Source of the DNA: Pseudofabraea citricarpa | Lineage: Eukaryota; Ascomycota; Leotiomycetes; Helotiales; Dermateaceae | Direction: 5' to 3' | DNA length: 64,000 nucleotides | Assembly (NCBI GenBank): GCA_029641185.1 | Contig: JAPWGK010000031.1 | Coordinates: 248,001-312,000, forward strand | Shown: positions 24,983 through 58,407 of the stretch, piece by piece | Numbering within the stretch: position 1 is the stretch's first letter | How the letters are laid out: every line of letters starts with the position of its first letter | The notes under the pieces: generated by a model | The model's database searches: none | Seen by the model: the letters and a program-made list of their open reading frames with translations, nothing else | Told to the model about the DNA's origin: nothing | Translations under genes and position numbers: made by a program

Positions 24983-26208
24983 CTAATTCACCGGGGTCTC
25001 AGTCTTGATATGAGAGCGACACTTCATAAGAGGTTGGATGCGTTTCCCAAAGTTATCTAATCCAATCAAGAAGTCATCGAAAATCAACATGATACCTTTC
25101 GTACCAGCAATCGAAGCAGCCTCGTCGAGAAGACCAGCGACCTTTTCAAAAGAGCCAATTAACGCGCCTCCATTCAGATTTACCGGGTTATCTGATCTGC
25201 TGATCCGGCTTGCGGTTGCCTTTGAATCTGCCTTGACATCCTTACTGGCTTGGCCTGCTACCCATGAAGTTGCATCCAAATCAACTCCCTCGCTATACCA
25301 GTCCCACTTAGCCCATGCCTCGTCGTCGGTCTCGTACGCGATAATCATAAAAAGTACCATGGCGCCAACATCACGGCCTGTCGTCTTAGCCGCTTCTACA
25401 AGTGCCAGATTCCCCTTCTCAAATGTTTTAGGAGTATTATGACCAGAGGCGCCACAGAAATTATAATCAGCGTACTCAGCAGCAAACTTGGTGCCTCTTT
25501 CACTCTGACCGGCAGCCACGATTGTGATCGGTTGAGATGGCTTAGGTGAGAGCTTACAGTCGTTCATGGTAAAGTGTTTTCCTTTGAAGTTGGACACGCC
25601 GTTCGTCCAGAGATCCTTCATCACTTGCACATACTCTTCGGCATAATCATATCGGTATCCGAAGTAAGCATTTCCTGGCCAGAGACCCATCTGCTCATAC
25701 TCGGCAGGCTGCCAACCGGTGACTATATTAACACCTGATTTCATGTCAGTCTTTCATCCTTTTGGCTGACCTGAGTTTTTGGACGTGTGGTTTCTGCTTC
25801 ACTTACCAAAACGGCCAGGGGCGATAGAGTCGATAGTGACTGCCATACGAGCACATAACGCAGGAGGCAGCGTCAGGATAGCAGTTGAAGCAAGGAGCTT
25901 AATCTTAGTTGTGACAGCAGCAAGACCCGCCACTATAAATCAAAACTGTACATCAGCACACTCTCGTCTCTATGATAAGCAAACGGAAAATACTGACTCA
26001 GAGTAAAGGATTCGAGGTTGTGATCCCAATGCTCTGTCCTGCCACCAAATCCTCGCAGCTTAATCATCGACAGAGCGAAATCCAACCCGTAGCCTTCTGC
26101 TTTCTGGACGATCTGCTTGTTCAGCTCGAAGCTTGGCATGTACGTTGGTGAGTTATCCGAGATCAACCAGCCGTTGTTCCCAATAGGGATGAATACTCCG
26201 ATCTCCAT
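24983..26208 (-). CDS. rutA-like: RutA-like FMN-dependent pyrimidine monooxygenase
   Basis: Three exons on the minus strand (25998-26208, 25807-25932, 24983-25734) give 362 residues, essentially the length of Escherichia coli RutA (363). Introns are GTCAGT...TTATAG and GTAAGT...TCAG. The bacterial-luciferase-like TIM barrel shows the RutA-diagnostic stretches [66 protein letters not shown] and [18 protein letters not shown]. In bacteria RutA opens the uracil or thymine ring with reduced flavin and O2, giving 3-ureidoacrylate (or its peracid), the first step of the Rut pathway; it needs a flavin reductase (RutF), which is not in this window. Role inferred: pyrimidine or related amide-ring breakdown as a nitrogen source in the cytosol. 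Closeness to the bacterial enzyme makes an ancient transfer plausible. Confidence 0.92.
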
Positions 26209-51166: not shown

Positions 51167-53501
51167 TCATACGTGTCCAAAATTCACGGTATGTTCGCCG
51201 CCAGAAACCTCGACACTCACGTAGCCATCTTCATATGTCACGCCGTCCTCCAAAGGCTTCACACCGTCCCAAACGAGCTTCGCATCCAAATAGACTGGAG
51301 TATCTTCTTTAGCCACTGGCACGGAGATCGTACCCTTACTTGAATTCGGCGACGATACAGTCAACGTGAACTTTTGGAAGTCATTGGTACTCGTCCAATC
51401 TACTGTGATAGGTCCAGTTGGAGTTGGGACCTGACCTCGGGCCCAAGTCACGTCTCCAGGAATAGGCTTGACGGTCCAGATAGCAAAGCCTGGTCTCGTT
51501 GGCTTTACGCCCAAGACGTAGTTCGTCAATGCAGGAACCACACCAGTCGACCATCCATGTGCAAGAGACGTATAATCACCCTCGTACTTGGATCCGTTCT
51601 CTCCAATACCCTCCCAGAATGTGATACCGGGATCCTGCGATGACATCCATCCGTAAAGTCTTCTGATTTCCTCCAGAGCAGTACCCGCGAGTCCAGTGAG
51701 AAAGCGAGCCTCGATCTCAAAGAATGAGATGAATGCGTAGACGCGCTGTGAAAAGCCAGCTCCTGTTGCGTCATTGTCGTAGAATGAGTTGCCATAGAAG
51801 CGTGCATTATTCTCGCTCAAATATGCTAGTACGGATTTGGCGCGTTCTTTATCGGCAGCTCCACTGACGATGCTGATGCTGTTACCATCTTGGGCATGCG
51901 AAATACCCGGAAGAGTATCGAAAAAGGCACCGGTACTCTCATCGAATAGGTATTTGTTGAGAGCGATTGAAACGATCTTGGCAAGTCTTGTCCAACGTTC
52001 GGCATCTCCTTCGTGTCCGCCAATAAAGTCGGCTATGGAAGCAGCATTGTTCAGTGCAAGAATGTACAGAGAATTGTAATATGTTACAGGTCCACTTCGA
52101 GGCAGGAATGCATAGTCACCATAGCCATCGGATGTTCCTAGTCCTTTGGTCACAAGGCCAGTCTCGGGATCAATGGTTGAAGGGTAATAGTCATCCAATA
52201 CCCGTACTATATTCGAATAATATGTCTGAATGTATGTGTTGTCTCCAGTATACATAAAGAGATCATAACCACAAATGACCCACCACAGAGGGTAATCGAA
52301 GAGAGCTAAAGTGTAGTTGTTGCTGTTTGATCATCAGTGCTGGTCATCACCACTGTAATCAAGGAATACTTACATGCTGGCAGGCGGGATCCAGCCATCA
52401 GCTCTCTGATGATCACCAAGATCAGCGAGAACATTTCGAACTGCTTCGCTAACATCGTGAGAGAGATATAGAGTACGGCCTGCAACACCGAGATCACCAA
52501 CATAAGGATCACGATCTCGCTTGGCACCATCATAAGCAACCAGCTTTCCAATAAGGCTGGGGCTTGCAGCTCCCCTCGGATCTGTGTCATTTTCACGGAA
52601 CGTATCTATACAAAGATCATTTGTATAAACAGCATCGTACCAAAATTGATTGAGCTCTGTATCTGAGCTCTCGAACCATCCCGTGAAGGTATCAGGTGTG
52701 CCAAGAAATGCGGTGAAATTCAGGCTCATTGAATCGATATAAACCTCACCATATGACGAAGTATACGGAGCATCCGCCTCAAGAGCATCGAGGTAGATTT
52801 TGAGGTATCGAAACCCGTGAAGGCCATCGGCACATACTTGGTTCCCATAGAGACAACCGTGATCATCTAACCACGTGACTGCCTTTGAAGGCACAGCAAA
52901 CTACAAAACATACTATTAGTACTAAGTAGATAAGGATAGAGTTAGGAAAGATATACCTGATCAGTTCCGGGTGTGATTGAATCGCCCTAGTCGAGATGTT
53001 AGAAACGGTACATGAAGCTGGTTGAGATGCCGAGCTTACATTGTATGAACGAGTAAAATCACTTAAATTTGTCAGATACTCCAATGATTCAGAGAAAGCC
53101 AATCTAACGCCAGGTGTATTGTTCGAGGCTCCAGCAAAAGATACCGAAAGAAAGCCAGCAATATTTTGGCCAAAGTCAATGACAATCGTTGGCGGGGTAT
53201 CTGTTTGGTTGGGTCTAGAAAGAATGGTAGACTTCCCGCCTGGCTTTAGCAAAGCCTCTGGGTTTGTTACATTGCCGAGAGTAAGATCAGAGACAATTGC
53301 AACGGGATAGACAGTTCTACTGCTTGGAGAGCGAACATATTGCAGCCATGTCTCTGACAACTTCTTAGATAGCACGGACTGTCTCTTGGGCGTTTGTTGT
53401 GGGTGATAATCCTGATATAGATTATGCCTAGTAGCTATTGAGCAATGTAACAATGTGAATAAGCAAAGCAAGCCCAGAGTCCTAGAGCCATGAGAGAGCA
53501 T
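51167..53501 (-). CDS. Secreted alpha-L-rhamnosidase, GH78
   Basis: Four exons on the minus strand (53040-53501, 52957-52986, 52374-52900, 51167-52322) give 724 residues. The second exon is only 30 nt (GDSITPGTDQ) and phase 0, yet it completes the RSYNGDSITPG motif. The signal peptide is MLSHGSRTLGLLCLFTLLHC. GH78 features: N-terminal beta-sandwich with TIVIDFGQNIAGFLSVSF, then the (alpha/alpha)6 barrel with DGAKRDRDPYVGDLGVAGRT (residues 288-294 onward), the fungal GH78 signature; also NNYTLALFDYPLWWV, FWEGIGENGSKYEGDYTSLA and a C-terminal beta domain. It removes terminal rhamnose from pectic rhamnogalacturonan or plant glycosides outside the cell. An upstream in-frame ATG (53579) would bury the signal peptide, so the 53501 start is preferred. 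An MFS gene with the same orientation lies just upstream. Confidence 0.93.
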
Positions 53502-54104
53502 GATTATAAAAAGACAAATCTGTTTTGCATTGAGAGAATGAATGCCATCGAGGGACTCTTCTTGATTTAAGGTACACACGCTCCACTTCCCCTCGGACCC
53601 CCTGTTTAGGAAGGCGGTGCGGGTGGTTGGGTGGAAAGGGAACGTTGAACAGACAACTTTAGCGCCCGGCTAACTGACCCCCACGACAACATCAAGATTA
53701 TTTCCCCTCGTTTACCGCAAGCGAGCATACATAACACATACATTTCGGCATTTGCCAACCTTATTTCCTGTCTCTCTTCCATGTCGAAATGCCGTCATGC
53801 TGTCTTGACTTACAGTATGACCGAGTCATCCTCTGCAACGACCCTCTCCAACCATCATCATGCGTCTGTCTTGGAGGGAACTGTTGTGTCCCTCTGATCT
53901 CTCAGGGATTGTTGCAGCACGCCGTCCCTGAATGCGCGTGACGCCGACGCGACTCGATGTCTTGCAGCTCGTCCATTATCACCACCACATGACCGAGTCC
54001 TCGGTGCATGGCAAACTGGTCTTGGAAAGGCCTTATGCAGGTTCAACTTCCCCTCACAGGGGCACTTGCATACGGTAATGCAATATTTTCCGCCATTTTC
54101 CGAC
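53502..54104. other. Intergenic between GH78 and MFS genes
   Basis: About 600 nt with the rhamnosidase promoter and the 3' end of the MFS gene. A GCCGACGCGACTCGATGT stretch and several CATCATC/ATGATG words are visible, but no exon was supported. Confidence 0.4.
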
Positions 54105-56577: not shown

Positions 56578-58407
56578 ATGGCATCTTCAGTCACTTTGGA
56601 AGGTGGTTCTCTATCTTTTTCAATGTTACTATTGTCCTTATCATTATACTTCATCATCGAGAAATTCTTTAGAAACTTATTTCGCTCGAAACATCCAGCT
56701 TTTTACGACAATTTGGCCAAAGAGAGAAAAGATATTCCATACTTCGCATTTATAATGGGAATAGTTTTGAACGTCGTTGCTACTCCTGCATGTTCCAAAG
56801 CTCTTTGGGACTCTTCAAACCAGGACGATTTGTCAAATGGTATTTCCTCAGCTGGACAAATGTGCCTTGCTTCCAAGGGAGTACTCTGGGTATCGGAGTT
56901 GAACCGACTTGATCATTCCAACATTTACATCATCCATCACCTTTCGTCTATTAGCTATCTCGTCTACCATATCCAAGTTGGACTTCCTCTGAGGATTCTT
57001 TATGCGTTCTACGTGTCGCTCGCGACAGAGATATTCTCCAACACGGCATGCATTGCCGCGTATCATAACCTCAAAGCTACGACATCGCCGCTAGTTTACC
57101 GCATCCAAGCAATCAATACCCTCCTACTTGTCTGTCTGCGCATCCCACCAATGATATACGCATCAACATTCCTCACTGCAAACCCAATTTCGAGCCCAAT
57201 ATTCTGGATCAATACTGGCTCGCTCTTTGTTTACGCACGCTTCATTATTAACAACATCATCGGCGCAGCTACTCGCTTGCAGCTTGTTCAATGCATCTTA
57301 CAACGACCCGCTCGTATTCGGGTTGCACAGAGATTCGATATTTCAATATATGGGTTATTCTTCGCAACTTCCTCCTTCTTTACAGCCATTCTAGCGGCAT
57401 ATATCTATCTGCACGACGCACAAGTTCATGTCAGTATTCCGCAGCTGTACACACAGCTTTTGATTACCGGTTTCACAAGTCTCTTCGGCGCTCGTGTGCC
57501 AGCCATTCTTGCTACCGGAAAGCCTCGAGACTTGCTTAGCAGCAAAGTATTTGCTCCAAATGGGTTATGGATTCAAGGAGCACTACTGATGGGGACCCTG
57601 AGCATTCTACTATCTCCAATTACCGATCGCTCTCGACTCTTGCTTTCGTTGATTGTTGCTTTGCCACTTGGTGAAGCGATTGGTCGCGTGGGCTGCCACT
57701 TTGCTGGCTGCTGTGCTGTTCCCAACCCGGGAAGAAGCTTGACAACTCAGCTGCAAGCAACTCTTCTAAACTTCTTGGCCGCGACCACAACTATTACTTT
57801 ATACATGACGGCTCACGTCTCTCTTGTTAATGCTGGAGGTCTTGCTCTTATTATAAATGCTCTAATCAGGTTATTCTTACGTCCGAATTTGTTTGCTTTT
57901 TGTCAATCAATGGCTGGTATCATTCTTTTAGCTGCAAACCTTGATCGACGCTTCGATACTTCTACCGCTGTGCTATCAGAGAACGTGGTCCTTGGTAATC
58001 TCAATGAGAGGCTGTTCTGGAGTCCATGGATAGCGGTTTTGGCTATGGCTGCATTTTCCGCCGGAGGATTTGTTCAAGGTTGTGCTTCTGGAATTGGAAA
58101 CCTGAAGCTGATTCAGGGCTGTGATAATGCAAATTTGGGCATCGCTCAAGGATGTAGAAAGGAATCTTTGGAAGCCATTCAAGGCTGTAGTGGAGCAGAG
58201 TCCCTAGGGATCTCCCAAGGCTGTGCATCAGGAAGAGCGGCACAGCTCGCATTGGTTCAAGATTACGCTTCGGGCAAGGAAGCAGAGACGGACCCAGTGC
58301 AGGGCTGTAGAAGTGAAGGGTCGGCCAGGCTAACAGTTGCCCAAGGCTGTTCTCACGACGGGGAAGCAGCTTTACGGGAAGTCAACCAGCCATCTCGGTT
58401 AATTTAA
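56578..58407 (+). CDS. TLC-domain + Lgt-like polytopic membrane protein with QGC repeat tail
   Basis: One exon of 609 residues from the ATG at 56578. Residues about 10-260 hold several helices with a TLC-like (TRAM-LAG1-CLN8) pattern, including WVSELNRLDHSNIYIIHHLS with the paired histidines H120-H121. Residues about 265-480 form a second helix bundle with GEAIGRVGCHFAGCC (R370, C373, C378-C379), the GRxGC..AGCC signature of bacterial prolipoprotein diacylglyceryl transferase (Lgt), then TTQLQATLLNFLAA like the QLYEALLN helix and ALIRLFLRPNLF like the late YGxxRFxxEFLR helix. From C502 the tail has eight units spaced 11-14 residues, seven ending QGC (502, 515, 526, 537, 549, 577, 591) and one changed to QDY at 563. 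Fungi have no bacterial lipoprotein pathway, so the substrate is unknown; a lipid- or acyl-transfer enzyme in the ER or plasma membrane is the inference. Confidence 0.8.
   Translation: MASSVTLEGGSLSFSMLLLSLSLYFIIEKFFRNLFRSKHPAFYDNLAKERKDIPYFAFIMGIVLNVVATPACSKALWDSSNQDDLSNGISSAGQMCLASKGVLWVSELNRLDHSNIYIIHHLSSISYLVYHIQVGLPLRILYAFYVSLATEIFSNTACIAAYHNLKATTSPLVYRIQAINTLLLVCLRIPPMIYASTFLTANPISSPIFWINTGSLFVYARFIINNIIGAATRLQLVQCILQRPARIRVAQRFDISIYGLFFATSSFFTAILAAYIYLHDAQVHVSIPQLYTQLLITGFTSLFGARVPAILATGKPRDLLSSKVFAPNGLWIQGALLMGTLSILLSPITDRSRLLLSLIVALPLGEAIGRVGCHFAGCCAVPNPGRSLTTQLQATLLNFLAATTTITLYMTAHVSLVNAGGLALIINALIRLFLRPNLFAFCQSMAGIILLAANLDRRFDTSTAVLSENVVLGNLNERLFWSPWIAVLAMAAFSAGGFVQGCASGIGNLKLIQGCDNANLGIAQGCRKESLEAIQGCSGAESLGISQGCASGRAAQLALVQDYASGKEAETDPVQGCRSEGSARLTVAQGCSHDGEAALREVNQPSRLI
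58075..58350 (+). repeat. Coding minisatellite: eight QGC repeat units
   Basis: Cysteine codons fall at 58081, 58120, 58153, 58186, 58222, 58306 and 58348, with a Tyr codon at 58264 where the sixth Cys would be. Spacings are 39, 33, 33, 36, 42, 42 and 42 nt, all multiples of three. Each unit centres on CAAGGCTGT-like DNA (CAAGGTTGT, CAGGGCTGT, CAAGGATGT). The sixth unit reads CAAGATTAC, which two G-to-A changes in CAAGGTTGC would explain. Confidence 0.85.

Follow-up and report, generated by a model that had tools for sequence, protein, structure and literature searches.

The window studied here, a stretch of 64,000 nucleotides from Pseudofabraea citricarpa (assembly GCA_029641185.1, contig JAPWGK010000031.1, positions 248,001 to 312,000), holds a gene whose product joins an N-terminal half of predicted TLC/ceramide-synthase fold to a C-terminal half homologous to Lgt, the prolipoprotein diacylglyceryl transferase. 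The fusion is supported by a Pfam model and profile-profile comparison for the Lgt half, by two fold predictions and by conservation in a fungal family. We judge it an even call that the product is a two-site membrane lipid enzyme, in which a TLC acyltransferase half and an Lgt-derived half would both face the cytosol. The reading frame runs from ATG at 56578 to the stop at 58407 with no internal stops; as the earlier note on this DNA had stated, the gene is one open, intron-free frame with a GRxGC..AGCC core in its second half (GRVGCHFAGCC, residues 369-379). The gene and the features of its Lgt-like half are:

56578..58407, + strand: whole gene, single open frame of 609 amino acids (TLC-like half, Lgt-like half, extra transmembrane helix, Cys-repeat tail), with 11 homologues
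57277..57345, + strand: linker rich in Arg (residues 234-256), for which three strands are predicted at the place of the Lgt N-terminal strand and arm-1; judged too short for a membrane crossing
57298..57954, + strand: Lgt-like domain, seven helices, without head domain, residues 241-459
57349..57351, + strand: Tyr258, equivalent of E. coli Lgt Y26; Tyr in 12/12 fungal rows
57574..57576, + strand: Gln333, aligned with E. coli Lgt H103; Gln in 12/12 fungal rows
57682..57714, + strand: Lgt signature GRVGCHFAGCC (residues 369-379), with Cys in place of N146 and of E151 and with Arg370 as R143, from alignments and hhalign
57868..57870, + strand: Arg431, equivalent of E. coli Lgt R239; Arg in 12/12 fungal rows, and by hhalign against the short-head bacterial group
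58024..58080, + strand: helix 8 (residues 483-501), an extra one that follows the seven Lgt-half helices; helical in the AlphaFold2 (AF2) model, with a conserved AGxFVQ-like end

Homology of this half to Lgt (PF01790 LGT superfamily), which the earlier note had proposed to check, is supported by concordant results: i) Pfam LGT PF01790 matched residues 249-380 (E 2.4e-9; 37.3 bits versus a cut-off of 24.9); ii) the predicted structure matched the Lgt fold in two fold predictions, whose alignments had 11 of 12 rows in common; iii) hhalign of the fungal Lgt half against bacterial homologues with the same GRxGC..AGCC signature (Cys-type) gave probabilities of 98.4-98.8 (13 fungal rows, with members P0013 and P0014 in and P0011 out; 20 long-head rows including E. 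coli; 11 short-head rows). Searches of PDB sequences with phmmer and with a profile gave 0 matches each at E up to 10.

Residues were compared in an alignment of 12 fungal rows (P0011 and P0014 out, P0013 in), 110 bacterial rows and E. coli, whose numbering is used. All 12 fungal rows keep Y26, G142, R143, G145 and R239; all 12 replace H103 by Q, N146 by C, E151 by C and Y235 by N, have gaps at E243 and R246 (where Arg435-Pro-Asn stands, invariant in 11/11 rows), and have lost the head domain. Because key residues are replaced throughout, the head is lost and the NCBIfam equivalog cut-off for strict Lgt is far off (25 versus 334 bits), the sequence does not support an Lgt in the strict sense, i.e. 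a lipoprotein diacylglyceryl transferase. Thus the Lgt-like enzyme of the earlier note stands as to homology and the retained R143, R239 and Y26, but not as to strict Lgt identity.

The weight of these replacements can be read against two mutant studies of E. coli Lgt, both available in part. In the earlier, mutants of Y26, H103 (including H103Q), R143, E151, R239, E243 and R246 gave no complementation, and H103 was proposed to lie at the acceptor-peptide binding place (PMC4728403). In the later, Y26A, H103A, R143A, N146A, G154A and R239A failed, whereas H103Q differed from H103A, and E151A and E243A grew as wild type, in conflict with the earlier study (PMC13251419). The available part of the later paper also describes H103 as not absolutely conserved among bacteria, distant Lgts with C at 146 and C or D at 151, and a presumed low activity for one such distant Lgt in M. 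smegmatis (PMC13251419).

The features of the N-terminal half are:

56617..57288, + strand: TLC/ceramide-synthase-like domain, seven helices, residues 14-237
56935..56940, + strand: invariant His120-His121 (12/12 identical), candidate acyl-carrying pair (CerS6 His211/His212; the mapping is our own)
57028..57030, + strand: invariant Glu151 (12/12), candidate equivalent of TLCD1 E145 or CerS6 D242, by spacing only
57139..57141, + strand: invariant Arg188 (12/12), candidate equivalent of CerS6 R275 or CLN8 R204

The TLC-like bundle that the earlier note had placed at residues 10-260 holds as a fold but not as a sequence match: residues 3-236 are modelled with a fold that matches ceramide synthases, at ~10% identity in structural alignment, while PF03798 matched neither this gene nor any of the 12 family members at E up to 10, and hhalign of this half against five ceramide-synthase-like exons of the host genome returned merely a 9-residue match (E 0.088). 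H120, H121, E151 and R188 are invariant, and would correspond to the TLC catalytic His, acid and Arg (roles in CerS6: PMC11919693) by order and spacing rather than by superposed coordinates; the E-to-R spacing is 37 here and 38 in one of the host's TLC genes. For TLCD1 D98, this half shows no clear counterpart. C72 and C96 are also invariant and lie close to a predicted lumenal loop; a disulfide between them would suit the lumenal side.

The host assembly (44.0 Mb, 43 contigs) holds one LGT match and, counted by exon, 15 listed PF03798 matches, some ceramide-synthase-like, among which the gene is absent; a paralogue search of the genome found none at E up to 10. The PF03798 content marks the host as a eukaryote, and the homologues of the gene suggest a filamentous ascomycete. 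Two ceramide-synthase-like genes of this genome (L016 and L019, contig C5 466957-469943) lie on opposite strands with matched exons ~1.6 kb apart, and their motifs differ somewhat.

A protein search, in which the 7997 candidates with most shared words were scored, returned 11 homologues at 40-47% identity, all 11 with PF01790. Ten are long enough for both halves, and P0011 (379 aa) ends within the Lgt half; Coleophoma cylindrospora (order Helotiales) is the sole source with a name. Two more members came from a search with the Lgt part: Hymenoscyphus fraxineus (P0013, Helotiales; PF01790 score 20.1, under the cut-off), which starts within the TLC half, and Zarea fungicola (P0014, Hypocreales; 35.2, over the cut-off), which is part of the Lgt half only; both may be shortened gene models. 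A repeat search with a full-length family profile found 0 new members. As to taxonomic spread, which the earlier note had wished to see listed for the fusion, the family has named sources in Helotiales and Hypocreales, and looks rare and patchy among named sources, within the most-word-sharing candidates scored.

Relatives of the Lgt part were picked up by 5-residue words in common with the query, the list being the best 120 of 337; bacterial rows were also chosen by length and a GRxGC filter, so that Cys at 146 is by construction, and many are without source name and bacterial by presumption. All 110 motif-chosen rows have C at 146 and at 151. Most keep what the fungal rows have lost (Y235 in 102, E or D at 243 in 110, R246 in 109), all 110 keep R239, and the H103 place holds Y or F in 95/110 and Q in 6/110. 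At 186-335 aa, the 38 presumed bacterial Cys-type proteins measured are not long enough to be the fusion. Of 13 bacterial genomes that carry a Cys-type gene, 6 have it as their sole PF01790 match (draft assemblies, in which absence is weak evidence), which suggests that Cys-type proteins are able to act as the Lgt. Two Desulfomicrobium genomes (L047 and L046) have weak PF01790 matches (35.2 and 40.2 bits) beside two strong ones each, and the weak-match frame of L047 has a GCCYG signature and sits on a far-off branch. Among the bacterial rows, a group with a short head loop comprises P0018, P0022, P0079 and kin, the named ones including Candidatus Binatia and Candidatus Rokubacteria records.

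In a tree of 50 rows (12, 15 and 23; P0011 and P0014 out, P0013 in), rooted by choice on E. coli, all 12 fungal Lgt parts group together as a single clade (100/100) within the Cys-type sequences; its stem is long, at 3.21 changes per column. Forks around this clade have bootstrap values of 88-93 and Shimodaira-Hasegawa-like approximate likelihood ratio test (SH-aLRT) values of 73-87, and a long branch, P0029, stands beside it. The plain reading is a single old acquisition of the Lgt part from bacteria, most simply from bacteria with the Cys-type signature.

Loop charges bear on orientation, with helix limits taken from one model. The count of Lys plus Arg is higher on the side opposite the N-terminus in 12/12 members (just 14 versus 12 in P0010; P0011 is incomplete), and in the TLC half that side averages 11.9 versus 2.3. 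In the Lgt half, loops on the active face have a higher net charge than those opposite in 11/12 fungal rows, and in 10/12 when the signature loop and the segment following helix 7 are left out (P0011 and P0014 out, P0013 in). Among bacterial rows, selected for this test by length and GRxGC, active-face loops are more positive in 12/24 short-head and 1/86 other rows, and not in E. coli Lgt, whose head is periplasmic and whose body is positive on the cytoplasmic side. A membrane crossing by the 23-residue linker is unlikely, so that the Lgt half should begin its first helix on the same, cytosolic, side. The charge reversal is thus observed, and from this opposition to most bacterial Lgts and E. 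coli we infer the orientation: the fungal Lgt half appears turned over, its modelled cavity open to the cytosol as in CerS6. The short-head group has no charge bias and, if it was the donor, the reversal of orientation would be less striking.

The protein ends in a further element:

58075..58350, + strand: QGC repeated seven times plus one VQDY (residues 500-591); the tail that holds them has very low model confidence (predicted local distance difference test score, pLDDT, <50 for 501-609)

The tail (501-609) is likely disordered, judging from the model. The seven QGC repeats noted earlier were found exactly (starts at residues 500, 513, 524, 535, 547, 575 and 589), with VQDY at 560-563 as a degenerate eighth copy; beyond residue 500, each of the seven Cys sits in a QGC. 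When 501-609, which holds six whole QGC, was shuffled, 5/200,000 shuffles reached three and none went higher. Codons for Q and G vary across copies while Cys is TGT in 7/7, and no DNA-level tandem repeat scored 30 or more in the tail; the repeat is therefore a protein feature rather than a recent DNA array. A search with residues 495-609 found no second protein with a QGC tail. Within the family, QGC occurs seven times in P0001, five in P0002, seven in P0003, three in P0005 and once in P0006, and not in the other seven of 12 aligned members (one of them, P0011, incomplete). The tail is thus real yet optional, with at least three copies in 4/12 members and one in a fifth. Membrane-adjacent cytosolic cysteines are a usual place of S-acylation, and the tail most likely provides sites for S-acylation or for membrane association, S-acylation being the simplest reading.

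How the two-site enzyme would work can be sketched from the modelled folds and the conserved residues, from which we infer catalysis and substrates. The TLC half would load His120/121 with a fatty acyl group from acyl-CoA and then hand this group on to an acceptor lipid. The Lgt half keeps R370 and R431, the phospholipid-donor arginines in Lgt, and has lost the head and several catalytic-network residues; for these reasons its probable reaction is the transfer of diacylglyceryl, or of an acyl group, out of a phospholipid and onto a non-lipobox acceptor. The TLC half would force on it a cytosolic active face, the opposite of that in bacteria; with the Lgt half inserted in reverse, both cavities and the Cys tail would lie on one side, probably of the endoplasmic reticulum. 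That the captured domain now makes diacylglyceryl thioethers on the cytosolic face, on its own Cys tail or on a small thiol, is a rather improbable extension; if true, it would mean a eukaryotic protein or metabolite lipidation of an undescribed kind.

It is possible, though on balance unlikely, that only the TLC half is active and the Lgt half is a catalytically dead, phospholipid-binding or dimer-forming part. The replacements, gaps and missing head in 12/12 rows would fit this, several such positions being intolerant of change in E. coli Lgt in the available parts of the mutant studies (PMC4728403; N146A, PMC13251419). However, G142, R143, G145, R239, Y26 and three signature cysteines are invariant at ~40% identity, beyond the need of a scaffold; Cys-type genes stand as the sole PF01790 match in some bacterial genomes, as given above; and the E151A and E243A results of the later study soften the case. 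Distinctly improbable is self-lipidation, in which the enzyme would place diacylglyceryl on its own QGC cysteines with helix 8 as the lipoprotein signal helix. The geometry allows it, as helix 8 is expected to emerge on the same side of the membrane as the Lgt active face, like a bacterial signal peptide; all tail Cys lie within the seven QGC motifs; and the first QGC here and in P0002, P0003, P0005 and P0006 fits the PROSITE lipobox pattern. Yet QGC is confined to the few members listed, P0008, P0010 and P0013 have no Cys where helix 8 ends, and the residue before the first tail Cys varies within the family (G, M, W, I or L), so that the lipobox likeness claimed in the earlier note is weak; moreover H103, the proposed acceptor-peptide place in the available part of the source, is Gln (PMC4728403).

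Ordinary Lgt activity on lipobox-like secreted fungal proteins is very improbable: homology with Lgt speaks for it, but the equivalog cut-off is far missed, the head is lost and the active face is predicted to be cytosolic. A chance likeness of an unrelated helix bundle to Lgt around R370, which the earlier note had named as its refutation, is scarcely credible; Foldseek E-values alone are modest, but the Pfam and hhalign matches and the VIA-align matches of the two fold models concur. The two-site enzyme with both halves facing the cytosol is the reading we prefer.

The gene neighbourhood (an MFS transporter open reading frame (ORF) upstream, histidine phosphatase ORFs downstream) gave no clue to function. 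Elsewhere in the window, the ORF at 51167-52255 (- strand) has an alpha-L-rhamnosidase domain match and is adjoined on the same strand by ORFs 52370-52894 and 52863-53579, which may be exons or decay of the same gene; a Luciferase-like monooxygenase (PF00296) lies at 24983-25744 (- strand).

Lgt has been treated as bacterial; here a domain of Lgt fold is conserved in a fungal family. A 2026 survey found Lgt in 12,956/13,512 genomes searched and none in archaea, and in its main text, as far as available, the words eukaryot- and fung- do not occur (PMC13251419). In the open-licence literature, including PMC12419801 and PMC13161914, no description of the fusion or of a fungal Lgt was found in the parts available. 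The fusion is a candidate for a kind of lipid transfer so far undescribed in eukaryotes and bears on the role of Cys-type Lgts; its apparently reversed orientation and fused acyltransferase fold make it a test of how a periplasmic enzyme may be re-used at a eukaryotic cytosolic membrane face.

Compared with Lgt (PF01790; E. coli 5azb), the fungal protein shares the fold of seven helices, the arm-1-like strands that precede the first of them, the GRxG signature and equivalents of R143, R239 and Y26, but is headless, has H103, N146, E151 and Y235 replaced, and adds an extra helix, a fused TLC half and a predicted cytosolic face. With Cys-type bacterial homologues (GRxGC..AGCC; N146C, E151C) it shares the same three cysteines, whereas those proteins mostly keep Y235, R239, E/D243 and R246 and are too short for the fusion. 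With CerS6, Lac1/Lag1, TLCD1 and CLN8 it shares the seven-helix order, an invariant HH, and an acid and an Arg at similar spacing; unlike these TLC acyltransferases, the fungal half lacks a PF03798 match, is ~10% identical in the structural alignment and is fused to an Lgt half. The CerS6 cavity opens to the cytoplasm, as is predicted for the fungal protein.
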